A stretch of DNA of 64,000 bases. It comes from Thalassia testudinum. Lineage: Eukaryota; Streptophyta; Magnoliopsida; Alismatales; Hydrocharitaceae. Positions 10,200 through 61,455 of the stretch are shown here, one piece after another; position 1 is the first letter of the stretch, and the number at the start of each line of letters is the position of its first letter. Location: assembly GCA_037157565.1 (NCBI GenBank), contig JAZHRO010000063.1, positions 90,486,001-90,550,000 on the forward strand. The letters run 5' to 3'. A program made the position numbers and the translations under genes. A model generated the notes under the pieces. It had not been told where the DNA came from and ran no database searches. It worked only from the letters and a program-made list of their open reading frames with translations.

Positions 10200-10207
10200 T
10201 ATAAAAG
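10200..10207 (+). promoter_or_regulatory. TATA box in the 5' LTR of A
   Basis: TATAAAAG in a GC-rich context; the same octamer is at 19808-19815 in the 3' LTR. It is the likely core promoter element of the genomic RNA, with transcription starting some 30 bp downstream. Confidence 0.65.
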
Positions 10208-10465
10208 GAGCACGGAAGCTGCCGGCTGCAGCAGGCCTCCGCCACCGACCCACCACTGTGCAGAGAGATCCTCTCTCTTCCACTCCACACTGCCGGCCTC
10301 TACCGTGGCGGCGAGTCTCCACCACCGTGGGCGTGTGGTGTGACAGGCCACACCGCCATCCGGAGCTCGCCCGCATTACCGTGAGCACCTTAGCGTGCAA
10401 CTCCCTCGCCGTCGTCGCCGACCACCGTCACCAACCTACTGATCAGCCACCCTCTCAGTAACTTA

Positions 10466-10493
10466 AGACGTCTGGGAAATTTCCCAGACGTCT
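10466..10493. repeat. 28-bp perfect palindrome with two GACGTC cores
   Basis: The half site is AGACGTCTGGGAAA followed by its exact complement. CTT/AAG extends the arms beyond one mismatch. It is repeated at 20074-20101 in the 3' LTR. It lies about 260 bp downstream of the TATA box. Confidence 0.8.
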
Positions 10494-11530
10494 GAAGTTA
10501 CCCGCTCCCTTCACCGCACACGCCTGAAGTCGCCTGCAGATCCCTTCCCGCACCTGCAGAACCTTCAGCGCACCCACGTCCGTCAACCTTCAGCTCAAAC
10601 ACGCACAACCGCCTGCAGTCCACGCCGTTCACCACTGTGCCTGCAGAACCGCCAGCAACCGACCTCTGCGCCCTCCACCGCTCACCGGCTGCTGACCTGC
10701 GCACGCCTGCAGATCAGCCCGCGCTCTCCTCCAACGCCTGCAGACCAGCCTGCAGCATCCTCCAACAGCCGTCTGCAGCTTCCACCGCGCAAGCGCCCCC
10801 TCTGCAGCTTCCACCGCACACGCCAGCGCCCGCCTGCAGATCAGCCCGCGCACACGCCAACCGCCTGCAGACGCCCGCCTGCAGACCACCGCGCAAGCGC
10901 CCAAGCGCCCCCTCTGCAGCTTCCACCGCACACGCCAGCGCCCGCCTGCAGACGCCCGCCTGCAGACCACCGCGCGCCAGCGCCTTCCGCAGACTCTCCG
11001 CGCGCCCACGCATAGCCACCTGCAGCACCTCCGCCGGAGCTCGTCCGGCCACCTCCGGCCGCCGCGCGACTCGCCGTCACCACCGATTCGAAGCCCTTGA
11101 TCCAAGGGACCTCCGCCGAGCTTCCCGCGCCCAGCCATCGGCTCCTCGTCGCGCAAGACAACGGGGAAGAATTCCCCTGTTTTGCTACAGTAAAGCATTG
11201 ATTAAAATTTACATTTTCTGCCATTGCCAGATTTTATTCATATTCTATTCACTCTGCATTGCGGAAAATATCCTGTAGTTTATCATAATTGCCATTTCAG
11301 CATTATTTCTTGCTTAAACCTTAATCTAAAGGCAATCTTGGCTTGGTTCTTGTCCAAATTGACTCCGAACAAACATTTTTAAGTGGCGCGAATTTTAATA
11401 CGTTATTGCCTCCCTGTGGAAACGACCCGCTCCTCTGCGAGTGGTTATTTCTTATTAAAAATTGATTAGTCGATTTTTCCACCACATTAAACTACAAACG
11501 ACTTAAAAGCGAAAGATCGACACGATCAAA

Positions 11531-18342: not shown

Positions 18343-18791
18343 TTTTGAGCTTAACTGGCTAGATCTTGCCGTCTTAAGCAAATCAGAACTCTAGGGTAGA
18401 CTAAGTTAATTCTAGGGTCAAACTTTAGAAGCTAAATAAGCTACTAGCTTTAGACCTTTAGGGTCCTTTGTGGACTTAAAAACTTAAGTAGGAGTTAAGT
18501 TGCGGACCATTCTTCAAGAGGTTGAGGAAGGGAAGCTAGGGTTTGAGTAAAAGGTGGGGTAGTACCTGGAGTCTTATTCTACCTTTTGGTTTACAGGTCC
18601 TTGTAACCCAAGCATCCAAATTGTTCACACTTGGTCTGGTAATTAACTTAATTTCTGAAAAGAGATTTGGTTCTCTTAGTTTTGACTTAAGAAAGGCTTG
18701 AAAACATATTTTGATTGGAAGAGTTCCCGCCGCAGGAGAGGTCGAGTATATACTCACCTTGAGGATGCGATGGTAACATATTACCTCCTCG

Positions 18792-19040
18792 GCGCTTGTC
18801 TCTTAGGATATCCATCCTACTGGGGGCATGTAAGCGCATTGCGCGGTTCAGGTACCATGGGCGGCCCTATCTCGAAGTGCCGATTGCCATAGGCCTGAAT
18901 TCGCTTAAGAAATCCATGGGCGATACTATCTCGAAGTGTCGATTGCCAGGAGTTCTTGGGGTCGTTATGGGCGGTGCTATCTCGAAGCATCGAAAGCCAG
19001 GCACCCTTCGAGGTATGGTAATGGGGACAATGAATCCGAC
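18792..19040 (+). other. Candidate structured RNA: closed stem plus three-hairpin array (A)
   Basis: GCGCTT (18792-18797) pairs with AAGCGC (18832-18837) and encloses AGGAT/ATCCT (18805-18809, 18814-18818). Three hairpins follow, each with loop TATCTCGAA: stems GGCCC/GTGCC (18863-18881, one mismatch), GATAC/GTGTC (18922-18940) and GGTGC/GCATC (18973-18991). Each is flanked by outer TGG...CCA pairs. The tail GGGGACAATGAATCCGACAC is conserved in the other copies. Confidence 0.7.
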
Positions 19041-19088
19041 ACAGGCTGTGTTGATAGCTGATCTGAGGTTAGACTTAGAAGAATCAAA

Positions 19089-19122
<34 letters not shown>

Positions 19123-19388
19123 CCTTTAACTCAAATAACTCGGACCAATGCACAAGCACGGATGCTTTAATCTCAGGGATCAATAAACTTTAGGGTAGAG
19201 TCAGAAATCAGGGAAACTTGTGCTGGCAACTCGTCTTTAGCCGACCTAGTCTGTAACTTAGCAACTACTTAGGAACCTTGGGTTTAGAACCTGAACTTAA
19301 TATGCTTCTGAAGGAAGACTAAGTGAGTTGACTAGTCTACTTAGAGTGCTAGGTTTCGCTTAATTTTGCTAGGGACTAGCAAAAACTA

Positions 19389-19402: not shown

Positions 19403-21136
19403 TGATTAGCCCATAGTTGTGGGTTATTTAAGTACTTAAGTGCCTACAGATTAGGTTAATTCTAACATTTATTTAGTATAAATTAGGATGTAAATAGATT
19501 AATTCATAGTTTTAATCTAATTACATAATCCATACATTGCATTCATATCTTAAGTGCATTTAGAATTAGCTTAGAATAGCATTCATTTAATTAGATAACC
19601 AATTAGGTATATTGTTTTTATTAACATAGAAGTTGAGGGTCTATACATAAATAACCCTAATATTTTAATAATATTTGCTTTATTCGTCTTCTTTCAGAAC
19701 GGCTGGCTGCCGCTCCAACGCCCGGCTGCTGCAGTGATGAAGCCATTCAAGGGGGAGCGGATGTGGTGGATCTGGTCGGCGACTGATTTCAAAATTGTTC
19801 AAGACACTATAAAAGGAGCACGGAAGCTGCCGGCTGCAGCAGGCCTCCGCCACCGACCCACCACTGTGCAGAGAGATCCTCTCTCTTCCACTCCACACTG
19901 CCGGCCTCTACCGTGGCGGCGAGTCTCCACCACCGTGGGCGTGTGGTGTGACAGGCCACACCGCCATCCGGAGCTCGCCCGCATTACCGTGAGCACCTTA
20001 GCGTGCAACTCCCTCGCCGTCGTCGCCGACCACCGTCACCAACCTACTGATCAGCCACCCTCTCAGTAACTTAAGACGTCTGGGAAATTTCCCAGACGTC
20101 TGAAGTTACCCGCTCACTTCACCGCACACGCCTGAAGTCGCCTGCAGATCCCTTCCCGCACCTGCAGAACCTTCAGCGCACCCACGTCCGTCAACCTTCA
20201 GCTCAAACACGCACAACCGCCTGCAGTCCACGCCGTTCACCACTGTGCCTGCAGAACCGCCAGCAACCGACCTCTGCGCCCTCCACCGCTCACCGGCTGC
20301 TGACCTGCGCACGCCTGCAGATCAGCCCGCGCTCTCCTCCAACGCCTGCAGACCAGCCTGCAGCATCCTCCAACAGCCGTCTGCAGCTTCCACCGCGCAA
20401 GCGCCCCCTCTGCAGCTTCCACCGCACACGCCAGTGCCCGCCTGCAGATCAGCCCGCGCACACGCCAACCGCCTGCAGACGCCCGCCTGCAGACCACCGC
20501 GCAAGCGCCCAAGCGCCCCCTCTGCAGCTTCCACCGCACACGCCAGCGCCCGCCTGTAGACGCCCGCCTGCAGACCACCGCGCGCCAGCGCCTTTCGCAG
20601 ACTCTCCGCGCGCCCACGCACAGCCACCTGCAGCACCTCCGCCGGAGCTCGTCCGGCCACCTCCGGCCGCCGCGCGACTCGCCGTCACCACCGATTCGAA
20701 GCCCTTGATCCAAGGGACCTCCGCCGAGCTTCCCGCGCCCAGCCATCGGCTCCTCGTCGCGCAAGACAACGGGGAAGAATTCCCCTGTTTTGCTACAGTA
20801 AAGCATTGATTAAAATTTACATTTTCTGCCATTGCCAGATTTTATTCATATTCTATTCACTCTGCATTGCGGAAAATATCCTGTAGTTTATCATAATTGC
20901 CATTTCAGCATTATTTCTTGCTTAAACCTTAATCTAAAGGCAATCTTGGCTTGGTTCTTGTCCAAATTGACTCCGAACAAACATTTTTAAGTGGCGCGAA
21001 TTTTAATACGTTATTGCCTCCCTGTGGAAACGACCCGCTCCTCTGCGAGTGGTTATTTCTTATTAAAAATTGATTAGTCGATTTTTCCACCACATTAAAC
21101 TACAAACGACTTAAAAGCGAAAGATCGACACGATCA
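19403..21136 (+). repeat. 3' LTR of A
   Basis: Same length as the 5' LTR, with about six substitutions. TATAAAAG is at 19808-19815 and the 28-bp palindrome at 20074-20101. It is followed by ACAAC, the target duplication. Confidence 0.95.
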
Positions 21137-21141
21137 ACAAC

Positions 21142-27345: not shown

Positions 27346-28270
27346 TGATGAGAACCTCATCATGAGCCATAACTAGCTCATTTTGACCCAATACAAAGGA
27401 TAAAAGCTCCTACATATCTCAAGGAAAGGCTTAACTCAGAGAATTCTGAGTTTGAGAAGAAAACCAGTCATAAGGGGTAAAAGTGCAATTTTACCAGTAT
27501 AATCTGCATACAGGGTAATTCAGGGCCCAAACACAGGTCAAAACAGCTTAATAAGAATAAAAGTGGGATGAGATGATCTAGCAAGGGCTACAGCACTTCC
27601 AAGGAACCAAATGATAATCTGTAACCCTAAAACAACCCACTTCAATTCACAAGGTTCGAGGCAAAGTAAAAATAGAATAAACCCTCTAAAATTCATAGAA
27701 AAATAATCTCTAGGGTTTAGAACCTTCAATTTGGCCTTTAGAACCCATTTTGACCTACATTGAGAACCATGCCCAATTAATAACTTAATTTGGGTTTTTA
27801 CGCAAATTGACCGGTCAAACAAGGTTTAATATGAAAATGAAATTCACCATCAGATTCCTTAGGTCCTAATTAGTCATGTATAAAAACTTGAGCCTAAGAA
27901 GAAACCCCCTTGACCGACTTCGCACTTTGGTCCTCATATATTTACTCTTTGGCCCTCAACTTTTGAACCCTCGCATTTTGGCCCCTAACTCTCCTTCGTT
28001 CTTTGCAATCAGGTCCCTCCTGCAAAACCCTGCCAGCACCATGCTCCGGCGACCTTGCGCGGAGCATGGCGCCGCGCAGGGTGAGGTGGGGGACCTGGCA
28101 AGTAAACCGGGGGTGCCCTACGTCGTCAGCCGTCGCAGGGGCACCCCCCTGGTCATTGTAGCCCACCATACCGGCCGTGCGAACGCACGGACGGTATGGG
28201 TTCGTGTTCCGACCATTCTCCGGCGAGGGAGACACGTCGTCTCCCTCCGCCTTCCTCCCTGTTTCATCCC

Positions 28271-28278
28271 TATAAATA
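28271..28278 (+). promoter_or_regulatory. TATA box in the 5' LTR of C
   Basis: TATAAATA after a pyrimidine stretch, followed by CCCCCC; repeated at 39299-39306 in the 3' LTR. Confidence 0.65.
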
Positions 28279-28895
28279 CCCCCCGCTGCTCCACCGACCA
28301 GGGCAGCCTGGATCTGACGGAGAAAATCCCCAACTTTCTTCTCTTCTTCCTCCGGCAGACGCTCACCAGCTCCGGCGGCTTCCTCCCCCTCCACCTCTTC
28401 GCTCTGCCGCAATACCAGCAGCAGAGACTTCCTCCCCTGCTCTTCCCGCGCCACGCCGCACCCAGCTGGCGCCTCTCCGGCTCTCTGCTCGCCGCCGCCC
28501 CTCTTCCTGAGCATCGTCTTCTCCGGCGACAGTCGATACGACTGTCGCCCTGTTCCTCCCCCTTCGTCCCTGCAAGTAAGCTAGAGCTACTCCCCTTCTC
28601 CTCCTCTTTCTTTCCCCGCTTTCAATTTATTCAATTAAGCCCTCTACCGACCCTGACCACCTTCACCCCCTTCGCCTCCGACCACCCTCCGGCGAGCCGT
28701 TCCCATCACCTCAGCAACCCACACGGCTCGCCGACCCTCACCGCACCTCCGCCTCATCACACTGAGCACCCCCCACCCCTCCACTGCCACTCCACACCTC
28801 CGTAACACTCCCCCGAACAAACCCATTCCTCCGGTTGCAGTCCGACCCAGGGCTGCCACCAGACACCTCCTTGCGGCCTGCCGCGCAGCTCCTCA

Positions 28896-28918
28896 CCTTC
28901 GCCGTGCCACGGCGAAGG
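28896..28918. repeat. 23-bp perfect inverted repeat in the LTR of C
   Basis: The arms CCTTCGCCGTG and CACGGCGAAGG are separated by one base. Repeated at 39924-39946. A slightly mismatched version survives in the older solo LTR F near 25951-25972. Confidence 0.75.
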
Positions 28919-30197
28919 TTCCCCAGTGGTTTGATTAGGCCGCGAGGCCATATTCATGTCCAACAGGTTTTGAGGTCCGACCGCCATTGACGCACATTAA
29001 GGCAGCCTCTCCCGCGCTCCAGGCTTGAGGACGCCAGGTCTCCAGCTGCTGCGGGGTACGGGGCGTCGTGCGAAGCCAGCCAGCCAGCAACTTATGCAGA
29101 TAGAAGCCGCAGCTGCAGAAGCCAAGCCGCGGTCTCCCAGCAGGCGCACGCGAGGAACGGTCTGCGTTTAGTCCCACATCGGTAAGCCTCGCACACGTTC
29201 CACTGTTTAAATTGATTTCGTGCACTAGCCTCATTGCCTCAGTACACGGGGTGAGGTCCCCTTACACCCGCCCGGTTACCCGGTCTCGTCCGCGCTCACG
29301 CCTCGCGGACCTGACCCGACCCGACTTAGACTGACTGCACTCCTCGCCCACCACACACGCCGGTGGGCCTGGACCCGGGCCTGACCCGAACCCGAGTACC
29401 CGGTAGCTCTGGGAGAGCTTTCCCAAGAGTGGTTTCAGAGAGAGAGAGACGCGGGGGGGAGGGTAGAGTAGGTTTTGCCTCTTGACGAAAAACTCTGAAG
29501 TGTGCAGGCCAAAGAAGAAGAAGAAGACCCGCGGAAGAAGAAGTGCAGGCGAAGAAGAAGGAGCTGCACTGTAGCAAATGCATAGTTAAGTCGTCTAAGC
29601 ACCGGGTCAGACGACGGAAAGTCAGCAGCCAGAGCAGGAAAGAAGGCAGGCTGAAGAAGAAGGAAGAGCAACGGCCAAAGTAGAAGAAGAAGAAAGGAAG
29701 ACTTAGTAGCTGAAGGCAGAAGCTCTGCAGCCATAAAGAAAAAAAAGGGAAAAGAGAAAGGGTCACCACGATTGCAGAAGAAGAAGAAGAGAGGTCAAGG
29801 CAGAAAACCAAAGAAGAAGAAGAACAAGGAGCTCTGAAGAAAGAAGAACATCACCAACGCAGGAACAGCAGGAAGAAGAAGAAGAGCATCACCATTACAG
29901 AAGAAGAATATCACCTCTGCAGAACAGAGAAAAGAAGGAGATCTAAAGAAAGAGAGAAAGAAGAGCATCCCCCTCTGCAGAACAAAGAGAAAACAACAAA
30001 TTCTTTCCCTCTCTCTTTCTTTTTGTAAAAGAAACATGTATATCTCTAGAATACGACTTGCTCCCTGAGTTCGACCTCGGGAACTCTTTCATTTTCCGAG
30101 TAAAAAATTTTATATTTGAAATGTTGGTAATAACCGGCTTTACTACAACGTTATAACAAAACCCTCAAACCCGGTTGGAACCGTCGACGTTTCATTT

Positions 30198-30215
30198 TGG
30201 CGCCGTTGCCGGGGA
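30198..30215 (+). other. Primer binding site of C, tRNA-Asp
   Basis: TGGCGCCGTTGCCGGGGA, three bases after the LTR, is the complement of the plant tRNA-Asp 3' end including CCA, the Athila-type primer. Confidence 0.93.
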
Positions 30216-31121: not shown

Positions 31122-32459
31122 ATGTACGGAAGGAGGTCTCTAAGACCACCCTTAAGACCTCCATTAGAAATTCGCTCTCGTCAAGACCAAGCCTCGACGC
31201 CCGTATTTGTGCAGCAACACCCTCACATTATTCCCTCTTCTGATTCAGAACCAAGTTCTTCTTCTTCCCCCATCATGGCTCAGCCAGTTGAGGAAGAAAA
31301 TAATCTGGAACACCAGCTCCAGCGACTCAATGACCTCTTCCAAAACTTCGTACACCCACCACAGCGTCCTATGATGCGGGACCACTACAATCCTGCTGCG
31401 GTGGCCATTGAGCCTCGAGTTAGAATCCCGATTGGAGGACCTGATTCCGAACTAAAGCCCAACATGATTCATGCTATACCTAAATTCCATGGGCTTAATT
31501 CTGAAGATCCCTTCCAGCACATCAAACAGCTAAAGCATCTGGCCCACACTTTTGGATCAGATGCGCAAAATCGGGATATTCTTCTCATGAAGATGTTCTC
31601 CTTTTCTCTTATGGACAAGGCCGCCCATTGGTATCAAACTCAGACCCGGCCGATCAACACTTGGGAAGAACTTCAATCCGAGTTTTTGAAAAAGTTCTTT
31701 CCCGTTGGTCGGACCAACGCCTTGCGCCATCAGATTACACACTTCACTCAACAATCAGGAGAACCTCTCCATGAGGCATGGGATCGTTTTCAAGATCTCA
31801 TGAGGAAGTGCCCCCATCACGGAGTTCCTAAATGGGAACAAGTCCAATCTTTTTACCAGGGACTCCGTGAGGACATCCGCCTTTTCGTCAATGCAACCTG
31901 CGGAGGAAACATCATGGGTCAACATGAAGACACCGTATGGGAGATTCTCGAAAACATGTGCGAGAACTCCATCAACAATGACTCCATGGGATTATTCGAC
32001 AGGACGAATACCCGCGCAGCGACGAATCTTAAGGGAGCACATGAGACGCAGGACCTGTCCGCATCAGTCGACCTGGAATTAATGGCCAGTCGATTGGACA
32101 AGGTCTCAATCATTGAAAAGAAGGTGGATGAGCTGACTCAGCACTTGCAGCGAGCCACCTCTGCGCGTAACTCCTTTGCACAACCTCCTTCCACACAGGA
32201 GACTGTGCAAAACATCCTCCACCGATCCTCCCTTGGGATGGATCCATATCCATCCCCATCTGATTCTTGGACTGGAAGATCATCCGATCCTTTCTTCACC
32301 AGCCGGGGGAACTCCATTCCTCCTTTCCCTGATTCTCAGGAGGTTCCTCAGACCTGCGAGGACCTCAACGCCATCCAGAACGACCCATTCTCCAACACTT
32401 ACAACCCTGGATGGCGAAACCATCCCAATTTTCAGTGGGCGAGAAATTCCCAAACCTAG
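31122..32459 (+). CDS. gag: Athila-type Gag of C, 445 residues, ending in UAG
   Basis: The start MYGRRS matches A and G. It has a Retrotrans_gag domain at about residues 125-250 (DKAAHWYQTQTRPINTWEEL, LKKFFPVGRTNALRHQITHF, HEAWDRFQDLMRKCPHHGVP). The C-terminal part [20 protein letters not shown] is shared with A. The zinc knuckle present in A is absent at the matching place. The frame ends at TAG 32457-32459; the following DNA continues in the same frame into pol, so A would read straight through here. The stop may be a point mutation or a site of readthrough. It forms the particle shell. Confidence 0.88.
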   Translation: MYGRRSLRPPLRPPLEIRSRQDQASTPVFVQQHPHIIPSSDSEPSSSSSPIMAQPVEEENNLEHQLQRLNDLFQNFVHPPQRPMMRDHYNPAAVAIEPRVRIPIGGPDSELKPNMIHAIPKFHGLNSEDPFQHIKQLKHLAHTFGSDAQNRDILLMKMFSFSLMDKAAHWYQTQTRPINTWEELQSEFLKKFFPVGRTNALRHQITHFTQQSGEPLHEAWDRFQDLMRKCPHHGVPKWEQVQSFYQGLREDIRLFVNATCGGNIMGQHEDTVWEILENMCENSINNDSMGLFDRTNTRAATNLKGAHETQDLSASVDLELMASRLDKVSIIEKKVDELTQHLQRATSARNSFAQPPSTQETVQNILHRSSLGMDPYPSPSDSWTGRSSDPFFTSRGNSIPPFPDSQEVPQTCEDLNAIQNDPFSNTYNPGWRNHPNFQWARNSQT

Positions 32460-32558
32460 AGACCACCTTTTCAGTCCCGCCCACAGCCCTCTCATCACTA
32501 CCAGCCGCCTCAGCCTCGGCCCAACCCTACTTATCCATCAGGGCCAAATCAAGATCAA

Positions 32559-35500
32559 ATGTCCTTAATCCTCCAGACTCTGGCTGACATTCAAAAATCG
32601 AATGCGGCTATTCAAAAACAGCACAAGGACGAGCTTACTGAAGTTAAAACTCAACTGGCCCAGTTGGCAAATTCTCGCCAGCCAGGCACACTCCCTTCCC
32701 AACCTCTTCCTAACCCAAATAACGTGCCAACCCAGAAGCGCGTTATGAATCCAAATTTAGGCCACGCTCAATGGATTTATCAGGCCCCTACTGCCCCATC
32801 TCCAGACGAGATGGAAGCCTCAACTTCGCGTGCGGGATTTCAGCAGCAACCACCCCTCCTACCAAACCCAAACCAAAATCAGGCCGGATTAAATTCTGTA
32901 ACAACACGTAGTGGTAAGACAACTCAGGACCCGCATTATCCAAACCACTCCCAGCCTGATAACCATGACCCTAGGATAGTTATCCAAGGTACCGCTGTTC
33001 CAGACCCACAACCTGGACCTATCCTAGAGGAACCAACCAAGATCCCGTTTCCCGAGGCCCTGACCAAGGGAAAGAAGACCACCAAACCCGTGGCCCCTGA
33101 GGAGGACCTGGTCAAGCTCTTTGAGCAGGTCCACATAAACATCCCCTTGATGGATGCAATCCGCCACGTACCAGCTTACGCACGATTTCTAAAGAATATA
33201 TGTACACCCCAGCGTAAGCCGCGAACCAAGGGAGGGAGCCCAATTGTTCTGTCAGAGCAAGCCAGCTCTGTAATCCTTAGTAAACTCCCACCCAAGGCAA
33301 AAGATCCTGGAACTCCCCTGATCTCCTGTAAGATAGGTGGTACCCAATTTGATAGAGCATTGTTAGACTTAGGTGCATCTATAAATCTGATACCCACATC
33401 CTTACTTGACCATCTGGAAGAATCTGAGCTGAAACCAACCGAGGTGACATTACAATTAGCAGATCGATCTATAAAGTCACCAAAAGGGATTCTCGAGGAT
33501 GTTATCGTGAGAGTGCGGGATTTCTATTTTCCAGTGGACTTTATAGTCTTAGTCATGGATGCACCTGAGAACCCTAGGGATACACCAATCATTCTAGGGA
33601 GACCTTTCTTGGCTACTGCTAGAGCCAACATCAGCTGTGAGGAGGGCCAAATAGAGCTTAAGTTTGGAGATCAAACACTGAAAATTGATATATTTAAGGC
33701 CCAACAAGGAATTAATTGCGACGTCATCGAGCAAATTTGTGACATCAAGACTTTGGTTGATGAATCACACCTCCAGAATGACTTGAGTATGCCTCATCAA
33801 CCACAGAAGGATCTTGACCCGCAAACAGAGGAGTCGAATCCAGATGTGAACAACCTAGTAACTCCCACCCTTGAACCTCACATCTATACTGAACCACCCG
33901 CTGCTACTGAAAACCCCATCCTCGAACTGAAACCCCTTCCTGCTCATTTGAAATACATCTTTTTGGGTTCTAATCAGACCCTTCCTGTGATCATCAATTC
34001 CAACCTCAGTCCTGAACAGGAAACCAGTCTGATTGTTGTCCTCCAGCAACATCGAAGAGCCATCGGATGGACTCTCGATGATTTGACTGGAATAAGTCCC
34101 TCTTATTGTACTCATCATATCTATTCAGAAGAGGGCACACGACCTTCTCGTGAAATGCAGAGACGCTTAAACCCCAATCTGCAGGAGGTCGTGAAAAAGG
34201 AGATCATCAAGTGGTTAGATGCTGGGATCATCTACCCGATCTCCGATAGTCGTTGGGTGAGCCCAATTCAGGTCGTGCCTAAGAAGGCAGGACTCACCAC
34301 TATAACGACTGAGATCAGAGAAATCATTCCTACCCGATTAGCCAACTCATGGAGAGTCTGTATAGATTACCGTCGACTCAATTCCTCCACGAAGAAGGAT
34401 CATTTCCCACTACCCTTCATTGATCAAATTCTCGAAAAACTAGCGGGAAATAGGTTCTTCTGCTTTCTTGATGGGTACTCCGGTTATAACCAGGTGGCAA
34501 TCCATCCTGAGGACCAAGAAAAGACCACGTTCACCTGCCCCTTCGGAACATACGCTTTCCGAAGGATGCCTTTCGGTCTTTGCAATGCACCCGCTACTTT
34601 TCAGCGATGCATGCTTGCCATATTCTCAGATATGGTAGGTGATTATCTGGAAGTCTTCATGGATGACTTTTCAGTTTTCGGAGCATCATTCGACGATTGC
34701 CTCCAACACTTGGTCCAGATACTCAGGCGGTGCATCGACGTGAATTTGGTTCTTTCCTGGGAAAAGAGCCATTTCATGGTGCCTGAGGGAATTGTCCTGG
34801 GACACTCAATTTCGGAGAAAGGTATCCAAGTGGATCGAGCTAAGGTTAATCTGATTTCTCACCTTCCTATGCCTAGCTCGATCAGGGACATCCGATCCTT
34901 TTTAGGGCATGTCGATTTTTATCGACGATTTATCCCTGATTTTTCAAAAATCGCACGCCCCCTGACCACTCTTCTCTCCAAGGATGTTCCCTTCGAAATC
35001 TCCAAGGAATGCACTCAAGCATTTGAAATCCTGCGTGACCGAGTCACCCAAGCCCCGATCCTACAGTCCCCTGATTGGTCTCAACCCTTTGAGATCATGT
35101 GTGATGCATCCGACTTCGCTGTAGGAGCGGTTTTGGGGCAGAAAAATGACAAGAAACCTGTGGTCATTTACTACGCCAGCAAAACACTCGATGAGGCTCA
35201 GCGTAACTATACGGTTACTGAGAAAGAGCTGCTAGCTGTAGTATTTGCCCTAGAGAAGTTCAGATCATACCTTCTGGGTTCCCATGTCATTATATACTCG
35301 GATCACACGGCTGTGAGGCATCTCCTTGCAAAGAAGGACGCAAAGCCTCGATTGATCCGATGGATCTTGCTGTTGCAAGAATTTGACCTCGAGATTCGCG
35401 ATAAAGCGGGAAAACAAAACGTGGTAGCTGATCACTTGTCCCGTCTTCCTTCTGAAATAATAGACCCTTCCGGACCCATCACTGAGCATTTTCCCGATGA

Positions 35501-36821
35501 GCACCTGCTGACTATTGGTACTAGCCTTCCATGGTTTGCTAATATTGTAAATTACTTGGCATCTCATCAGACCCCGTCCGATTGGCCGAAGGCCAAGAAA
35601 GACAAATTGCGCTCCGATGCCAAGTATTACATTTGGGAAGACCCGTACCTCTTCCGCATAGGTGCCGATCAGATCATCCGGAGATGTGTCCCGGAAGGGG
35701 AAGTCAACAATATCCTCTCTTTCTGCCATGACCAGGCATGCGGTGGCCATTTTGCCGGGCATAAAACCGCATCAAAAGTCCTCCAGTGCAGCTTTTACTG
35801 GCCCACACTGTTCAAAGACGCATACAGTCATTGCAAGGCATGCAGTCGTTGCCAGACTTTGGGCAACATGAGCCATCGCGACATGATGCCTATGCAACCG
35901 ATTCTAGTATGCGAAATCTTTGATGTTTGGGGGATTGATTTTATGGGCCCCTTTCCTGTTTCGGATGGTTTCGAATACATTCTGTTGGCTGTGGACTACG
36001 TGTCCAAATGGATCGAAGCCATACCGACCCGAACCTGTGATCACAAAATCGTTCTCAAATTCATTCATCAACACATATTCTCAAGGTTCGGGATTCCTCG
36101 TGCAATAATCTCTGATGGGGGAACCCATTTCACAAATGCTCAGTTTAGGTCACTGATGACCAAATATGGGGTGTCTCACCGAATCTCTACTCCTTACCAC
36201 CCCCAAACTAATGGTCTAGCTGAGCTATCTAATCGGGAGATCAAGAAAATCCTGCAAGTCACTGTTCGACCTGACAGGAAGGACTGGTCGTCCCGACTTC
36301 CGGAAGCATTGTGGGCCTATAGGACCGCCCACAAGACCCAATTGGGCATGTCTCCCTTTAGATTGGTGTACGGAAAGGCATGCCACCTTCCCGTCGAACT
36401 GGAGCATAAAGCCTATTGGGCAGTACGGAACTGTAATCTGGATCTTTCTAAGACTGGGACCCACAGAAAACTCCAAATCAGCGAGATCGATGAATTACGC
36501 ATAGACGCGTACGAGAACTCGCAAATCTACAAGGAGCGGGTTAAAGCCTTCCACGACAAACACATCTCTAGAAAGATCTTTCATCCTGGTCAAAAGGTCC
36601 TACTCTTTGATGCCCGACTCAAACTCTTCCCAGGAAAACTGAGATCTAAGTGGGTCGGACCATATTTGGTCCGACAGGTTTTTGGAAATGGAGCAATCGA
36701 AATCAGTCCACTCAGCCACGATTCTGAACCTTTCATCGTGAACGGTCAGAGACTCAAGCCGTTCATTGATGTAACTTCTACTGATTTGGCTGAGGCATCT
36801 TATATCCTCCTTTCCCCTTGA
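32559..36821 (+). CDS. pol: Athila-type Pol of C: protease, RT, RNase H, integrase
   Basis: 1,420 residues from the first Met. The open frame actually starts at 32460 right after the gag stop, in the same frame, and has no separate good start, so expression probably needs readthrough or fusion with gag. The protease active site DLGAS is at residue 270, RT FMDD at 702-703, RNase H near 848 ([14 protein letters not shown]), the integrase HHCC finger near 1060, and the catalytic triad D1127, D1186, E1222 with D,D-35-E spacing. No internal stop. The last residues are YILLSP. It copies and integrates the element; a companion Gag is at 31122-32459. Confidence 0.93.
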
Positions 36822-37097: not shown

Positions 37098-37714
37098 TAG
37101 GAAAGTGCAAAAACTTGTAAGAAAAGGTTTCAAACAAAAAATTCACATATGCCAAAAATACCATAAAAATTAAAAAATTTTTCGAAAAAGAATAAGAGGA
37201 AAAGAGGAGAAGGAAAATTTTGTGAAGGAGAAAAGAAACAAAATGAAAAAGGAGCACAAAATTATGAGAAGTGATAGTCATTAGTAAGGAACTAAGGAAT
37301 TAACCTAAGTTCTAGACCTCATTCAAGAAAATAACTGAAAAGTGCACAATGAGATTAGTAAGAATGCAAACCTTAGGCATTCTTGAATAGACTCTTAGTA
37401 CCCATTAAGATCTGGACACTCCTCAAGAGGTTGAGGAAAATGAAAAGCTGAAGTATTAGGTCTAAGGCTTAGGGAGTATTCGGCCTCGTTAACTAATTTT
37501 TGGTTTACGGGACTCAGTAACCTAAGCACCCTAATCTCACACACAGCCTGGTTCAGTAAGCGTAAAAATCAGAATCACGCAGAAGCGTCGCAAAAATCTG
37601 AAAAGAACACCTAGAATAGGAGCGGCCAATCAACACAAGTTGATTTGGACGAGTTCCCAGCGCAGAGAGGCGGGAAATCCCCTCGAAGATGCGTAACAAA
37701 ATATCATCTCCTCG

Positions 37715-37975
37715 GTGCTTGTCTCTTAGGATATTTACATATCCTACGGGGGGCATGTAAGCACTCTGCTGATTCAGATTCCATGGATGGCATTATCTCG
37801 AAGTGTCAATTGCCAGGGTCTGGATTCGGCCACGGAATACCATGGATGGGATTATCTCGAAATCTCAATAGCCAGGGTTCCGGGGGTTGCCATGGGCGGT
37901 GCTATCTCGAAGCATCGATCGCCAGGAACCCTTGAGGATTGATGATGGGAGCAAGGAATCTGATACAGACTGCGT
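37715..37975 (+). other. Candidate structured RNA: closed stem plus three-hairpin array (C)
   Basis: GTGCTT (37715-37720) pairs with AAGCAC (37759-37764), enclosing AGGATAT/ATATCCT (37728-37734, 37739-37745). Hairpins with loop TATCTCGAA follow: GGCAT/GTGTC (37789-37807), GGGAT/ATCTC (37848-37866) and GGTGC/GCATC (37898-37916). Relative to A and E, stem bases change in compensating pairs while the loop stays fixed. The tail GATGATGGGAGCAAGGAATC follows. Confidence 0.72.
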
Positions 37976-38361
37976 TGAAAAGCCAATCCTAGGCTAGAAC
38001 TAAAAAGAAAAAGAGAGAGAAAACTCTCCAAACAGAAAAACTTTCTATCTCTCTCTTACAAAACGCACTGCGAACTGAGCCAGGGCTAAAATCATTTCAA
38101 GCACGGGTGCTTTAACCACGAAGTCCAATAAACCTTAGGTTAGTTCTTGCGGGCCTTAAAAACCTTTGCTAAAAGACTGAGGCTAAGGCTAGACAGATTT
38201 GGATCTTGATTGGTACTAGAATACCTTTTAGGCCTATGGTCAGCATTCTAACCTAATCTATGCTCAAATAAAAAAGGCACTTATCTAAAACCATTAAAAA
38301 CTTCATGGTCTAGAACAAGGGTTGAAACCTTAAGTTTTTGCTAAGGGACTAGCAAAAGCTA

Positions 38362-38373
38362 GGCATGGGGGTA
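38362..38373 (+). other. Polypurine tract of C
   Basis: GGCATGGGGGTA directly before the 3' LTR. Confidence 0.9.
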
Positions 38374-41221
38374 TGATGAGAACCTCATCATGAGCCATAA
38401 CTAGCTCATTTTGACCCAATACAAAGGATAAAAGCTCCTACATATCTCAAGGAAAGGCTTAACTCAGAGAATTCTGAGTTTGAGAAGAAAACCAGTCATA
38501 AGGGGTAAAAGTGCAATTTTACCAGTATAATCTGCATACAGGGTAATTCAGGGCCCAAACACAGGTCAAAACAGCTTAATAAGAATAAAAGTGGGATGAG
38601 ATGATCTAGCAAGGGCTACAGCACTTCCAAGGAACCAAATGATAATCTGTAACCCTAAAACAACCCACTTCAATTCACAAGGTTCGAGGCAAAGTAAAAA
38701 TAGAATAAACCCTCTAAAATTCATAGAAAAATAATCTCTAGGGTTTAGAACCTTCAATTTGGCCTTTAGAACCCATTTTGACCTACATTGAGAACCATGC
38801 CCAATTAATAACTTAATTTGGGTTTTTGCACAAATTGACCGGTCAAACAAGGTTTAATATGAAAATGAAATTCACCATCAGATTTCTTAGGTCCTAATTA
38901 GTCATGTATAAAAACTTGAGCCTAAGAAGAAACCCCCTTGACCGACTTCGCACTTTGGTCCTCATATATTTACTCTTTGGCCCTCAACTTTTGAACCCTC
39001 GCATTTTGGCCCCTAACTCTCCTTCGTTCTTTGCAATCAGGTCCCTCCTGCAAAACCCTGCCAGCACCATGCTCCGGCGACCTTGCGCGGAGCATGGCGC
39101 CGCGCAGGGTGAGGTGGGGGACCTGGCAAGTAAACCGGGGGTGCCCTACGTCGTCAGCCGTCGCAGGGGCACCCCCCTGGTCATTGTAGCCCACCATACC
39201 GGCCGTGCGAACGCACGGACGGTATGGGTTCGTGTTCCGACCATTCTCCGGCGAGGGAGACACGTCGTCTCCCTCCGCCTTCCTCCCTGTTTCATCCCTA
39301 TAAATACCCCCCGCTGCTCCACCGACCAGGGCAGCCTGGATCTGACGGAGAAAATCCCCAACTTTCTTCTCTTCTTCCTCCGGCAGACGCTCACCAGCTC
39401 CGGCGGCTTCCTCCCCCTCCACCTCTTCGCTCTGCCGCAATACCAGCAGCAGAGACTTCCTCCCCTGCTCTTCCCGCGCCACGCCGCACCCAGCTGGCGC
39501 CTCTCCGGCTCTCTGCTCGCCGCCGCCCCTCTTCCTGAGCATCGTCTTCTCCGGCGACAGTCGATACGACTGTCGCCCTGTTCCTCCCCCTTCGTCCCTG
39601 CAAGTAAGCTAGAGCTACTCCCCTTCTCCTCCTCTTTCTTTCCCCGCTTTCAATTTATTCAATTAAGCCCTCTACCGACCCTGACCACCTTCACCCCCTT
39701 CGCCTCCGACCACCCTCCGGCGAGCCGTTCCCATCACCTCAGCAACCCACACGGCTCGCCGACCCTCACCGCACCTCCGCCTCATCACACTGAGCACCCC
39801 CCACCCCTCCACTGCCACTCCACACCTCCGTAACACTCCCCCGAACAAACCCATTCCTCCGGTTGCAGTCCGACCCAGGGCTGCCACCAGACACCTCCTT
39901 GCGGCCTGCCGCGCAGCTCCTCACCTTCGCCGTGCCACGGCGAAGGTTCCCCAGTGGTTTGATTAGGCCGCGAGGCCATATTCATGTCCAACAGGTTTTG
40001 AGGTCCGACCGCCATTGACGCACATTAAGGCAGCCTCTCCCGCGCTCCAGGCTTGAGGACGCCAGGTCTCCAGCTGCTGCGGGGTACGGGGCGTCGTGCG
40101 AAGCCAGCCAGCCAGCAACTTATGCAGATAGAAGCCGCAGCTGCAGAAGCCAAGCCGCGGTCTCCCAGCAGGCGCACGCGAGGAACGGTCTGCGTTTAGT
40201 CCCACATCGGTAAGCCTCGCACACGTTCCACTGTTTAAATTGATTTCGTGCACTAGCCTCATTGCCTCAGTACACGGGGTGAGGTCCCCTTACACCCGCC
40301 CGGTTACCCGGTCTCGTCCGCGCTCACGCCTCGCGGACCTGACCCGACCCGACTTAGACTGACTGCACTCCTCGCCCACCACACACGCCGGTGGGCCTGG
40401 ACCCGGGCCTGACCCGAACCCGAGTACCCGGTAGCTCTGGGAGAGCTTTCCCAAGAGTGGTTTCAGAGAGAGAGAGACACGGGGGGGAGGGTAGAGTAGG
40501 TTTTGCCTCTTGACGAAAAACTCTGAAGTGTGCAGGCCAAAGAAGAAGAAGAAGACCCGCGGAAGAAGAAGTGCAGGCGAAGAAGAAGGAGCTGCACTGT
40601 AGCAAATGCATAGTTAAGTCGTCTAAGCACCGGGTCAGACGACGGAAAGTCAGCAGCCAGAGCAGGAAAGAAGGCAGGCTGAAGAAGAAGGAAGAGCAAC
40701 GGCCAAAGTGGAAGAAGAAGAAAGGAAGACTTAGTAGCTGAAGGCAGAAGCTCTGCAGCCATAAAGAAAAAAAGGGAAAAGAGAAAGGGTCACCACGATT
40801 GCAGAAGAAGAAGAAGAGAGGTCAAGGCAGAAAACCAAAGAAGAAGAAGAACAAGGAGCTCTGAAGAAAGAAGAACATCACCAACGCAGGAACAGCAGGA
40901 AGAAGAAGAAGAGCATCACCATTACAGAAGAAGAATATCACCTCTGCAGAACAGAGAAAAGAAGGAGATCTAAAGAAAGAGAGAAAGAAGAGCATCCCCC
41001 TCTGCAGAACAAAGAGAAAACAACAAATTCTTTCCCTCTCTCTTTCTTTTTGTAAAAGAAACATGTATATCTCTAGAATACGACTTGCTCCCTGAGTTCG
41101 ACCTCGGGAACTCTTTCATTTTCCGAGTAAAAAATTTTATATTTGAAATGTTGGTAATAACCGGCTTTACTACAACGTTATAACAAAACCCTCAAACCCG
41201 GTTGGAACCGTCGACGTTTCA
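38374..41221 (+). repeat. 3' LTR of C
   Basis: 2,848 bp, nearly identical to the 5' LTR. The differences seen are two bases in the TTTGGGTTTTT region near 38827, one near 38884, one near 40479, one near 40710, and one A fewer near 40770. It is followed by the CTTAT duplication. Confidence 0.95.
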
Positions 41222-41226
41222 CTTAT

Positions 41227-41410
41227 GTTTTGCCTCTGATAAATCCTGTTTATGTACTGCAATGGTAAAATTGTAGTTTTAACCTTTGTTTCATGTTTTC
41301 TTCTCAGAACACTTATTCCGTGAATTAGGTCCTCCAGGTTATGTAAGAGCTCTTATTCTCTTTCTTAGGTCAAAATGAGCTAGTTAGGGCTCATGATGAG
41401 GCTCTTATCA
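41227..41410 (-). repeat. Solo LTR F, U3-side terminal piece
   Basis: Its complement starts TGATAAGAGCCTCATCATGA and continues similar to the first 180 bp of the C LTR. ATAAC follows at 41411-41415, matching 8311-8315. Confidence 0.88.
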
Positions 41411-41815
41411 ATAACTAGACCAATACATCTTGAGGTAGAGTGGCAGGTATGGATCGATACTTGTCTATGTCAGTCCATCATCAGCTTTAGGGTGTCCTTC
41501 TTAGCACCCTCTTTTTCCCACACATATCTGCTTGAGGAGCCTTTCCCTCCTCACTGCACACTCTCTGAGGTCATTACTCATGTGTATTAAGTGAAACCTC
41601 CAACAATGGCTTAGTAGTACCCTATTTTCACTTGCATCTGGAGAGCATTTGACATTACTCTCCATCACCAACTTGCCAACATCTTGGGTTACTTACTCGA
41701 TAGGCCAAGTTTGTTATGTATTTTTTTCAGGTCTCCTTCTACTTCCCTTCTAGAGCTCGATTTGCGAGACATCCCAACTCTACCTCAGGTAATATCTTTA
41801 CTTGCTTTTGCTTTC

Positions 41816-41850: not shown

Positions 41851-42516
41851 TATAACCTGAGGTTGTTCATAGCATGATACCCATTCTACATGTAGTTAGG
41901 GCATCCATCTTTCAAAAAGAGAGAGAAAGAGAAGAGAAAGTAGATGGAATCCTTGTAAGATGAATTGCAAATATATTGAGAAGGAAAAAGAAAGAGAAGA
42001 AGAGAGATACACAGAGAGAAAAGGTGCAAAATATTGTTAGTCCCAGCATTTGATTTTGGAAGAGTTCCTAAGTTCTAGTCTAGAATGAATGATTAAGTAA
42101 GTCCTAAAGTGCTAAGAGAAAAGGAGATAAGAGAGGGATACCAACTTTATGCCTCCTGGTTCCGTTTTAGGGTTTAAACACTTACGTATTTGTTAAGATC
42201 TGGACTATTCCTCAAGAGGTTGAGGGAGTTGCGAGGCTAATGTATTAAGTCTAAGGCTTCGGGGGTATTCAGCCCCGTTGCCTACCCTTTGGTTTGCGGG
42301 AATTAGTAACCTAGGTACCCAAAAATCACATGTCGGCCTAGTTTAGTGAGCATAATGAAGAATAACGCCAAAAAAGTGTTTGTTCTGAAAATGTTTTCCC
42401 AAAAATTTGACTTAGGAGTGGCTCAAAGACACAAGTTAATTTGATGAGTTCTCAGCACGGAGAGGAGGAATGAAAATACTCCCCTCGAAGATGCGTTATA
42501 ACATACCGTCTCCTCG

Positions 42517-42780
42517 GTGCTTGTCTCCTAGGATATCTAAGTATCCTATCGGGGTCACGGAAGCACCTTGTGCTGGTTCATGTGCCATGGGCGACATTAT
42601 CCCAAAATGTCGATTGCCAGGATCTGAATTTAGCTATAGAACATCATGGGCGGCACTATCCTGAAGTGTTGAAAACCAGTGTTCTGGAGGTTTGCCATGG
42701 GTGGTGCTATCTCGAAGCATCGACTACCAGGGACCCTGCGATGATTGATGGTGGGGACAAGGAATCCGATACAGATCATG
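42517..42780 (+). other. Candidate structured RNA: closed stem plus three-hairpin array (E)
   Basis: GTGCTT (42517-42522)/AAGCAC (42561-42566) encloses AGGATA/TATCCT (42530-42535, 42542-42547). Hairpins are GACAT/ATGTC (42593-42611), GGCAC/GTGTT (42652-42670) and GGTGC/GCATC (42703-42721). In the third, the flanking GGGC/GCC pair of other copies is GGGT/ACC, a compensating change. The tail GGGGACAAGGAATCCGATAC follows. Confidence 0.72.
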
Positions 42781-42910
42781 TTTAGGGCCAATTCGATGCT
42801 GGATTTAGGGGAATTTAAAAAGTAAAAGAGTGAACTCTTAAAATAAATATTTATATCTCTCTCTTTTATCCAAAAATGCACTAGCAAACTAAACCCAGAC
42901 TTACGTGTGC

Positions 42911-54519: not shown

Positions 54520-57096
54520 TTATCTTCTTATCCCCGAATTTGATTTCCATTCTGCCAGATTCATAGTTAATATTTGCCTTGATAGTAGCTAAAAATGGTC
54601 TTCCTAGAATTATCGGGTGTTCTTCAAGTTCTCTAGTACCTCCATGTCAAGAACCAGGAAATCCATAGGAAAATAAAAATCACGGACCTTGACAATTATA
54701 TCCTCAACAATCCCCTGTGGTGTGGTCATAGATCGATCAGCCAGTTGTAATATGACCTCAGTAGGTTTTAACTCTCCAAAGTTAAATTTTCGTATAACAT
54801 AGTGGGGATTAAATTTATGAAGGCACCTAAATCTAACAGAGCCCTATTAAAAGTAGTATCTCCAATAACACATGAGATTAGAGGGGCTTGTGGATCTTTT
54901 TGTTTTTAGGGTAGGTTTCCAAGGATAACTGCACTATCTTGTTCAGATAACACTAACCTTTTAGTTGATTTGGCCTGGCGTTTAGGTGTGCACATTTCCT
55001 TTAAAAATTTCGCACAGGATGAGATATTCTCAATAGCTTCAAGGAGTGGTATGTTCACCTGGACTTGTTTAAAAATATCAAGCCACTCCTCAGATGGATT
55101 GGTTTTCTTTTTTTCTAGGTTTGTTCAAGGCTTCAGGAAAAGGAGCTTGAGAGAAATCATGAGTGTTTGGGTCCTAATCCTTGTCTTCTTGATCTCCTAG
55201 GTCAAATTCGAGCTCCTCAAGATCTTGTTTAGATTTAGATTTACAAGGGTAAGGATCTTGGATTTGTCTCCCACTTCTCAAGGTTACTGCACCAGCAAAA
55301 GCATTAGGGTTAGAAAGTTGAGGTAGGTTCTGCAAAATAGGTGGAGCCTGATTAGGGTTAGCAAAACTAGGTGGGTGCTGGGGAGCAGGTTGAACTATAT
55401 GTGCCTGTTGCTCTCTTGTGTTGTATTGGTTAACCCTATTGAAATTTCTTGGGTTTGGGATGGGTTGGGATAGCAGCATCCCGTGTTGTCTAGCATCTAC
55501 TAGCTGGTCCAGTCATTCTGTCAATTCTGTCCTCAATTAATTCATTTCTTCCTTATGTCTCAGATTCATCTCTCTCATTTCTTTAAGGACCAGGCTCAGA
55601 TCAGTGGGCTGGTTTTCCTGAGTAGGTTGTGGCTGGTACGTGCATGGTTGTGTGTACATACTAGGTTGCCCATAAGTGTTTGGTTTAGTCAAGTTAGGAC
55701 CCTGGACAGGCTTCTAACTTGACCAAGAAAAGTTAGGATGGTTGCGTCATCCAACATTGTAAGTGTTTGAATAAGGCTCATTTCTAGTGTAACCCTGGAG
55801 TGCATTCACATCCTCAGGATAACTAGGCATCGGGCTGCCTAGTTCTGAATTCGAGGGCATCAAGGTCCCTCCTTGGTACCCAAAAAGAGATGGGTCTAAG
55901 TATAGTTGGCTCATAGGTGGAGCCATGGTTAGGTCATGAATGTTGTGCACTGATTCTTGACCTAGTGGGTTGGGGAATTGGTTGTGGGTTAATATAGGCA
56001 CTCCTTGGGTAGGCATAGGATTTAATCTGGATTGTGTACCTAAGGAATTCCCTCCCTTTAGAAGGTTATCCAGTTTCTTATCCAAATTCTCCACATTCTT
56101 TCCCATGAGTTCCACCTTATCTAATCATTGTGCAATTAGCTCTAAATAAACCAAGTTTGAATTATTGTTAACTTCATAAACTCTGCTCCTTGGTTGATTA
56201 TCTCTGTTAAAGGTAGACATTGAGGCATTGTTGAGGAAATTTTCACTCATATTCTCAAACAATTGAAAGGCTCCCTCAACATCTCGACTCAGGAAATTGC
56301 CCTCACATGCTGCATTAACAAAATTCTTCAGATTATCACTCAACCCATAATAGAAAATACGAGACAAGTGTTACTTCAGAATCCCATGATGGGGGCATTT
56401 CCTAGCTAAATCATTGAACCTCTCCCAAGCCTCATGTAGTTGTTCCTCGGGATTCTGCTTAAAGGTTGTTATGGCACATCTAAGGGTATTAATTTTTCCT
56501 ACGGGGAAGAATTTCTTTAGGAATGTGCTTCTCAGGTCTTCCCAAGTTAGGATTGGTCTACCAATTGTCCTCAGCCAATGTGCAGCTCTATCTTTCAAGG
56601 AGAATGGGAACATTTTCATCATCAGGGTACCTTCATTCAGGTTCCTAGGACCAAAGGTTCTTCCTATGTGTAGGAGCTCTTCAAGGTGGTGGAAGGGGTC
56701 ATCTGATTCACGGCCATGAAAGTGGGGCATCAAGTTAATGATCTAAGGTTTGAGTTCAAAATCATCCCCATCCTAAGGTACCCTAACAAAGGGTTCAGGT
56801 TGGGCATTAGGAGGGTTATAAAAGTCACGAAGAGGACAGTCTGCCCTTCTATTTTGGAGTCGAGTGATGGACTGCACTATGACTTCCATCTGCCGGTCAT
56901 GATGCTGGCCCTACTTAGTGATCTACCTTTGTAAGAGAGTCATAAGATCCAGATTTTGTTCATCAATCTCTTCTTCCTCGTGATGACTGGCCATTGTAGA
57001 GGGTTTAGATTCAGATCCTGGATAAGTAGGTCTTCTCCTAGGATTTCTTTCTAATGGTGGTAGCAAATCAGGATTTTGAGATCGTCTACCTTGCAT
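54520..57096 (-). pseudogene. gag: Decayed gag and protease of G
   Basis: The start MQGRRS at 57096 matches the M-x-GRRS start of A and C. Gag words follow: [102 protein letters not shown]. Then comes TLRSGRQIQDP and the protease: [52 protein letters not shown]. Stops and frameshifts occur after PHHGILK, at LELIAQ and around the protease. As in C, no zinc knuckle lies before NEPYSNTYN. It is cut by I within the protease end (EIKFGDKK). Confidence 0.87.
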
Positions 57097-60823: not shown

Positions 60824-61455
60824 AGAGCTTATAAGCACATTTTGTGGTTTAGGTGTCTCAAATGGTACTATCTCAAAGTATCGAAGTGAGAGCTTGAATT
60901 CACTAGGAGTTTCTCTCACGGTGTCACGAGGTGTTGGGGTGTAAGGTTCCTAGGAGGTGCCTTGGATGGTGCTATCATAGCATCGGAGCAAGAGCCTCTT
61001 CAAGGATCGATGATGGGAATGATGATTCTGACACAATATGTACTAGGGATAATCTAAAGCTAGGCATGGGGGAGAAAACCAACAAAAAAAAGTTGGCCAA
61101 TCATAATGCATTGACACTTAGATTTTCAATGACATGCAAATTATAGATCAAGTTCTTAGGTTAAGGAGTTTCTAACTGTGAAGATGGGATTTCAAGATAG
61201 CTAGAATCAGAAGGGGTAAATTAGTTGAGTTCTTGGGTGGATGCATAGATCCTAATTATTCTAGCCCTTGGATTCAAAGACAAATTTTGATGTTTTATCA
61301 AAAACAAATCTCGTACCTTCATTTATCAAAATCAACCAAAGTCCTATAAAAGAAATTTCTCCTCAAAACGAAAAAAATTATTTTCGTAATTTTCAATATT
61401 ATTATTTTGCGAAATAAGTTTTGCTAGGGACTAGGAAAAGCTAAGTATGGGGGTG
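60824..61455 (+). other. 3' noncoding region of M, right part, with hairpins and PPT
   Basis: AAGCAC (60833-60838) is the partner of GTGCTT at 3232. Two hairpins of the shared array are recognisable: GGTAC/GTATC with loop TATCTCAAA (60864-60882) and GGTGC/GCATC with a shortened loop TATCATA (60968-60984). The middle one is degraded. The tail GGATCGATGATGGGAATGAT follows at about 61003. A GGCATGGGGGAG tract is near 61062, and AGTATGGGGGTG (61444-61455) is the terminal PPT. No gene. Confidence 0.65.

Follow-up and report, generated by a model that had tools for sequence, protein, structure and literature searches.

The musD transport element (MTE) and the IAP RNA transport element (RTE) are located between pol and the 3′ LTR. 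The constitutive transport element (CTE) of Mason-Pfizer monkey virus is also 3′ non-coding and carries repeated binding sites as internal loops within one extended stem, and retroviral psi, within the full-length RNA, is a hairpin array whose loops are exposed. In mouse LTR retrotransposons, MTE and RTE are described as promoting export independently of splicing, and docking of host factors is either demonstrated or suggested (PMC12786077, PMC5767303). For HIV-1, psi is described at the 5′ end (PMC8036536). The Ty1/copia Sirevirus elements of plants are described as having conserved stem-forming motifs in non-coding DNA near the 3′ LTR: an inverted repeat that includes the PPT, and palindromic repeated motifs that lie within the LTR, upstream of its TATA box, and also 5′ of ENV in two elements (PMC2829016). 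Retand, from another Ty3/gypsy lineage, is described with family-specific arrays of tandem repeats in the region from pol to the 3′ LTR, and the words hairpin and secondary structure are absent from the main text on these repeats (PMC11963269). In soybean Diaspora, which is described as related to Athila, only 128 bp separate pol from the PPT (PMC1142308).

In this study, a three-hairpin array between pol and the 3′ LTR was analyzed in the window, i.e., the whole stretch of 64,000 nt of Thalassia testudinum DNA. No such element was described for Athila in the literature searched (open-licence PMC papers). As in the CTE, RTE, and MTE, a conserved RNA secondary structure was found in the 3′ non-coding region, with pairwise covariation not significant. 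Like MTE and RTE, the domain is a structured, very probably cis-acting LTR-retrotransposon RNA; it differs in belonging to plant Ty3/gypsy elements and in repeating one AUCNCGA heptaloop as many as three times, and no homology is claimed. A likeness in export is only proposed, the domain here being known from sequence and predicted fold. Compared with the CTE, the repeated parts are apical loops in a multibranched domain. In contrast to psi, the domain lies 3′ of pol. The 5′ leaders of elements A and C could be aligned only at the PBS (24 nt) and in stretches of 17 and 14 nt, the latter inverted, and matches to the hairpin-unit model above 12 bits occurred in the window only at the 3′ arrays, not at a psi-like leader position. 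The domain is much larger than the Sirevirus repeat, and the PPT is not its outer arm, the last hairpin (H3) lying about 420–480 nt upstream. Compared with Retand, whose repeats occupy the same region, three diverged units are held here by structure across families. Diaspora, as described, has no room for the domain, so not all of the clade depends on it.

Retrotransposons in the Window

The array was present in four elements, of which A and C have both LTRs (Table 1) and E and M are remnants. Retrotrans_gag, Integrase_H2C2, and rve domains were present in pieces of A and C. The Gags of A and C shared 35% identity over 364 aa, and their pol DNA 65%. A carries the CX2CX4HX4C motif at residue 294 of its frame; the two ORFs of C (31122–36821) lack it, despite the 99.8% identity of C's LTRs. 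Integrase relatives showed up to 68% identity among the best 120 of 7947, many of the source-named ones coming from plants; the integrase piece had no relative among viral contigs.

The sequence TGGCGCCGYTGCCGGGGA followed the 5′ LTR in both A and C. This PBS is presumably of the tRNA-Asp type, which we take to be a hallmark of Athila. The Athila label of A and C was based on this PBS and on the original prediction, not on an RT tree. A hairpin adjoining the PPT was found, with at most one mismatch per arm, at 40/40 fetched PPT sites. Rfam snoR71 (RF00097) gave matches above the gathering threshold at 13205–13310 (-), 31719–31826 (-), and 56381–56487 (+). Two of the three were antisense within gag ORFs, and this family in Rfam may include sequence of retrotransposon origin.

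Table 1. Positions of the retrotransposon and RNA features in the window; the replacement ORFs are listed under their elements.
Feature	Position	Strand	Remarks
Element A	LTRs 9795–11529 and 19403–21137		LTRs 99.7% identical; open gag-pol frame 12760–18174
Element C	LTRs 27346–30197 and 38374–41224		LTRs 99.8% identical; ORFs 31122–32459 and 32559–36821
PBS of C	30198–30215	+	TGGCGCCGTTGCCGGGGA
Domain of C	37612–37997	+	Closed by P0 (37612–37658 with 37947–37997)
Ha of C	37660–37694	+	Accessory hairpin; MFE
P1 of C	37703–37946	+	Junction-closing helix around H0–H3 (37703–37713 with 37934–37946); MFE
H0 of C	37714–37765	+	Long stem, variable loop
H1 of C	37768–37830	+	Loop ATCTCGA 37795–37801
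H2 of C	37833–37882	+	Loop ATCTCGA 37854–37860
H3 of C	37883–37932	+	Loop ATCTCGA 37904–37910
PPT-adjoining hairpin	38336–38357 (C), 19364–19384 (A)	+ (C)	TTTTGCTA...TAGCAAAA
PPT of C	38359–38371	+	CTAGGCATGGGGG; just before the 3′ LTR (38374)
Domain of A	18681–19076	+	H0 18792–18837, H1 18841–18904, H2 18906–18958, H3 18959–19006
Domain of remnant E	42390–42800	+	Units at about 42576–42632, 42635–42691, 42686–42742
Diverged array of M	60847–61007	+	Canonical H1 60847–60903; H3 with different short loop 60951–61007
ORFs replacing gag-pol	L305 1191–2864	+	557–646 aa (the four ORFs)
	L306 1151–3037	+
	L307 1029–2969	+
	L309 1634–3511	-

Predicted Structure of the Domain

A closed, multibranched domain, about 390 nt long, encloses the units and an upstream hairpin. 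It lies between pol and the PPT, and in A and C it is found 0.5–0.8 kb past the pol stop. The MFE of the domain in C was -146 kcal/mol, with z-scores of -4.64 for the sense and -1.86 for the antisense strand; those of A were -2.34 and -0.04. When A and C were folded separately (MFE), the topology was the same: P0, Ha, P1, H0, and then H1–H3. The two folds had 107 pairs in common, of 137 in C and 133 mapped in A. The RNAalifold consensus structure of 39 copies was the same fold as that of C. The conserved block of A and C (18703–19083 and 37632–38009, 75% identity) exceeded their pol DNA (65%) in similarity and nearly coincided with the domain. The H0 stem was GCGCTT/AAGCGC in A and GTGCTT/AAGCAC in C and E.

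In remnant E, 125/136 pairs of C could form; its own MFE structure contained H0 and H1 but lacked H2 and H3. The MFE structure of M contained H1 and H3, and not H2. No kissing loop or pseudoknot was found in the domain; kissing with Ha was rejected, segment 37684–37691 not being specially conserved. Rfam 15 gave no match inside the domain at the gathering threshold, and at E ≤ 5 only sub-threshold antisense miRNA matches (38003–38065) over 37600–38380. A coding role was rejected on the stops in all sense frames of the domain (2, 9, and 5 in A; 6, 2, and 6 in C) and on the unit spacing of 59/50 nt.

Hairpin Unit

Hairpins were confirmed in A, C, and E where the original prediction had placed them, and a covariance model of the unit gave 43–52 bits for all nine units of these elements, which had also trained that model. 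In M, the predicted array held for a canonical unit 1; unit 2 was barely recognizable, and unit 3 had a short, different loop (16.8 bits). The unit had been described as a 5-bp stem with a 9-nt loop. It consists of a 7-bp stem and a 7-nt loop, and beyond the stem lie a 1 × 4 internal loop, the outer TGG/CCA helix, and one more helix outside it; the stem includes the flanking pair (C-G, U-A, U-G) and a U-A pair closing the loop. The outer TGG/CCA pair was said to be kept, but M has other letters there, which do pair in its own fold.

The stems listed earlier and their single mismatch (A1) were correct, and pairing in 11 units of the window comprised 62 Watson-Crick, 14 G-U, 0 A-C, and 1 other. 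The presence of G-U without A-C points to the sense RNA. In 10 aligned units, 97% of the cells paired compared with at most 54.5% in slid versions, and 13 double-change cells were found compared with 3.7 after shuffling, although the cells are not independent events because the units are paralogous.

The loop, proposed to be invariant, varied in the window (E1 ATCCCAA, E2 ATCCTGA, M1 ATCTCAA), and its consensus genome-wide is AUCNCGA. With up to three mismatches, GGTGCTATCTCGAAGCATC occurred 4 times, with 0.02 expected. The loop word alone, with one mismatch allowed, showed no excess over chance (16 sites, 14.8 expected). The above-chance signal is thus the stem-plus-loop context and not the loop word alone. 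A weak match to the unit model (11.1 bits, E 0.4) was observed at 3440–3472 (+), upstream of an E-like LTR, and is possibly an old array remnant.

Selection on the Fold

Covariation in a larger alignment, the check suggested with the original prediction, gave a mixed outcome. In a pairwise G-test (APC, tree-shuffled null, 39 copies), 0/163 pairs reached E < 0.05, with a best value of 0.08; 1 of the top 60 pairs was in the structure, and clade splits seemed to dominate the scores. This null result is either evidence against covariation or a sign that the test was underpowered through a few deep, dominating clades. Paired double changes, in contrast, exceeded those of all 300 nulls. They were counted branch by branch over a tree built from 58 non-redundant copies; C alone supplied the structure, and 300 null alignments served for comparison. 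Removal of copies with at least 95% identity to a kept copy had reduced 59 copies to 39 for the G-test and 76 to 58 for the branch set. L266 (no H1 recorded), L288, and L299 (both with no array) were outside the alignment. Internal branches correspond to replicating lineages, and terminal branches are mostly post-insertion.

On internal branches, pairing was kept in 128/180 pair-changing events (71%; null 44%, maximum 56%). Of 14 internal double changes, 12 kept pairing (null mean 2.0, maximum 7), a number reached by 0/300 null alignments. On terminal branches, 345/671 events kept pairing (51%; null 48%, reached by 32/300), as expected if constraint mostly ends at insertion. Some signal remained in the terminal double changes, with 17/34 kept (null 8.0, reached by 2/300). 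When A's own structure was used, 12/12 internal double changes kept pairing. Structures slid by -3, -2, +2, and +3 kept 0/0, 0/2, 0/3, and 0/1 double changes, and antisense-only pairs kept 2/3. The kept fraction on internal branches was less clean in these controls, at 50/73 (68%) for the -3 slide and 59/119 (50%, null 39%) for antisense-only pairs. Weight was therefore put on double changes and refolding. Internal changes gave 71 G-U and 28 A-C pairs (null 48.6 and 39.4), and terminal changes 227 and 165 (null 120.6 and 111.1).

H2 was the best-supported helix, with 22/24 internal-branch changes kept and 3/3 double changes. The changes kept were 14/18 in P1, 34/47 in P0, 25/37 in H1, and 12/19 in H3 (double changes 3/4). 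Support was weak for Ha (13/21, no double changes) and H0 (8/14). The H3 loop had 0.14 internal-branch substitutions per site compared with a domain mean of 1.02, a low rate that is partly biased because many loci were selected through the loop.

For refolding, the bases of eight diverged copies were set on the frame of C, with 160 equally changed randomized controls each. Six of the eight retained more C pairs than all 160 controls; E was beaten or equalled by 1/160 and L225 by 7/160. The numbers of C pairs retained, of 137, were 27 in L225, 29 in M, 42 in A (control maximum 35), 45 in E, and 124 in L262 (control maximum 82). Comparison of the copies showed that the sense RNA has been kept able to fold into the predicted closed multibranched structure, in which 7-bp stems carry the 7-nt AUCNCGA loops, three at most. 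The originally proposed selection for an RNA fold is well supported by the paired double changes, the refolding of diverged copies, the strand bias, and the retention without gag-pol. By these sequence comparisons, the domain is very probably a selected cis-acting RNA structure.

Genome-Wide Occurrence

The assembly of the window was searched as the one host genome (4.26 Gb, 237 contigs). One loop pattern gave 46,045 exact matches compared with 4 for the reversed control, the PPT pattern 35,924 compared with 1, and the PBS 30,625 exact copies compared with 0. All 55 hairpin-selected loci contained exactly three units (165 unit-model matches); the model run took 55 of 70 fetched loci, several of the others being second matches within the same elements. 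A PPT-selected sample of 94 listed sites (first 11.93 Mb of contig C1) was taken to lessen selection through the loop. The array was present at 92 of them, 54 being credited by an exact loop match within 800 nt upstream rather than by one-by-one reading. The other 40 sites were fetched and scanned, and 38 had an array (34 with three units, 4 with two) while 2 had none. Two units instead of three were seen in L266, L282, L289, and L298; the unit number can drop. The distance from H3 to the PPT was 422–477 nt in 52/55 hairpin-selected loci, the other three lacking a PPT, and about 453–473 nt across the 38 PPT-selected arrays.

The fetched PPT sites were chosen as lacking an exact match, so the following loop and stem tallies under-represent exact ATCTCGA units with the usual flanks. 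The commonest H1 loop was ATCACGA (23/37), and the H2 loop was ATCTCGA in 28/35. The H3 loop was ATCTCGA in 21/38, ATCTCAA in 8, and ATCTTGA in 4; the latter two resemble products of CpG decay. Across 110 units, the 7-bp stems contained 134 G-U and 9 A-C pairs. The last hairpin had been reported as GGTGC/GCATC in all four elements, which holds for A, C, E, and M, but family F has the H3 stem CGGGATT/AATCTCG instead of CGGTGCT/AGCATCG (16/34 fully paired H3 stems). H2 of family F has the same stem as its H3, so one inter-unit copying event is likely rather than three separate compensations.

The M-type H1 occurred at 53 sites genome-wide with up to two mismatches. In 11 fetched stretches, the M-type copies had a canonical H1 with a different outer helix and one canonical loop, and matches to the second unit reached at most 14.6 bits. 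A pattern scan for relatives beyond the host yielded 71 stretches from viral contigs and at least 119 from genome contigs. These 190 stretches gave 14 loop sites in 13 stretches (at least four stem pairs or a second loop nearby), which were judged to be chance; two sites had five stem pairs, and the sole two-loop stretch had unpaired stems.

Elements without gag-pol

For 42 of 100 PPT sites listed, a listed PBS was found on the same strand within 16 kb. The PBS–PPT distance was 4,326–4,523 nt in 12, 7,983–8,227 nt in 24, and 10–16 kb in 6. In all 12 short elements, no gag, PR-RT-RH, or IN of A or C was found (tblastn, 1e-4), and 12/12 kept the PBS, leader sequence, array, and PPT. The domain is kept in these elements, which indicates that it acts in cis, independently of gag-pol coding. 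Three loop matches were found in 11 of them; L304 had one by regular expression and two units by the model, as L282.

Six C-type short elements aligned with C from its internal start to 901–1071 (gag from 925), and the alignment resumed 15–18 nt past the pol stop of C. Five F-type elements aligned with 286–358 nt of C's leader and then from 6 or 229–239 nt past the stop. The A-type L311 aligned with the first 1221 nt of A (gag from 1231) and resumed about 150 nt past A's pol stop. Pfam gave no match with six ORFs from five elements, including those that replace gag-pol (Table 1), and none of 5052 candidate proteins scored with the L306 ORF. C- and F-type replacement ORFs were about 60% identical. 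L311 has two shorter ORFs that differ from these, and their relatives occur as window remnants at 6693–7319 (38%, 256 aa) and 41408–41809 (44%, 138 aa). The second remnant belongs to E, upstream of its domain, and E was therefore probably once of the gag-pol-less kind.

Proposed Function and Alternatives

The domain very probably acts in cis in the 3′ non-coding part of the full-length Athila-lineage RNA. Repeated, near-identical loops on variable stems suggest that one partner reads loop and helix. The repeated loop together with the internal loop would form a docking site for a conserved partner, up to three being bound per RNA, and P0, P1, and H0 would hold the sites in place. Loop and fold are shared although the Gags of A and C are only 35% identical, C lacks CX2CX4HX4C, and the 5′ leaders align only in short stretches, so the partner seems to be shared as well. 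A shared partner would favor a host factor, and with it export or routing, with packaging close behind. A host RNA-binding protein would then export or route the long unspliced RNA, as for the mouse musD MTE and IAP RTE. Nuclear export or cytoplasmic routing via a host factor is tentatively proposed, by analogy, as the step served. Retention without the usual genes suggests that the element RNA needs the fold to move, and it fits packaging as well as export.

Under a packaging role, possibly coupled to dimerization, binding of the three loops by Gag or a Gag precursor would select the full-length RNA of autonomous and gag-pol-less elements. This alternative is judged somewhat less probable than export or routing; in its favor, the array is kept by the 12 gag-pol-less elements, whose RNA depends on uptake by proteins supplied from elsewhere, and repeated identical exposed loops suit a multimeric Gag. 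The diverged Gags and the motif missing from C speak against it. Dimerization, an option in the original prediction, is disfavored in its plain UCGA loop–loop form, and such kissing was rejected, since many H1 loops are ACGA and cannot self-pair through the UCGA palindrome. Kissing between the 5′ and 3′ ends was also rejected; in A and C, neither the leaders and 5′ LTRs nor the domains contained the loop complement UCGNGAU (0.1–0.5 expected).

The export or routing reading was also weighed against three others. An element for mRNA stability or translation in a long 3′ UTR, e.g., against nonsense-mediated decay or exonucleases, would agree with the position past the pol stop in A and C and with the ORF of 557–646 aa upstream of the domain in 4/5 gag-pol-less elements with ORFs listed; a clamp needs no three repeated loops, and this role is unlikely. 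An aid to reverse transcription at the PPT or to strand transfer is more improbable still. The nearly fixed distance from H3 to the PPT would suit it, as would the PPT role proposed for the Sirevirus inverted repeat (PMC2829016), but H3 is more than 400 nt away and the PPT-adjoining hairpin is the better candidate. The units are clearly paralogous, and the identity of H3 with H2 in family F indicates that inter-unit copying happens, which would suit DNA-level dyads (protein-binding palindromes or cruciforms) or of a functionless, decayed tandem duplication. That explanation is very hard to reconcile with G-U far exceeding A-C (14 and 0 in the window, 134 and 9 in the PPT-selected sample, 71 and 28 on internal branches), with fold z-scores that favor the sense strand, and with double changes that keep pairing; it is the least probable of all.

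The domain may represent an undescribed plant RNA family, a proposal that we hold somewhat short of probable: a three-loop docking domain serving, in trans, one genome-wide retrotransposon system made up of several autonomous Athila families and gag-pol-less partners with a replacement ORF. If true, plant LTR retrotransposons would thereby gain their first known structured RNA element for transport or packaging. As a concrete RNA with a defined loop, the domain leads one to expect one partner, common to diverged families, that recognizes AUCNCGA on a 7-bp stem. It also offers a view on the mobilization of gag-pol-less elements, in which the PBS with leader, the domain, and the PPT are the parts kept.
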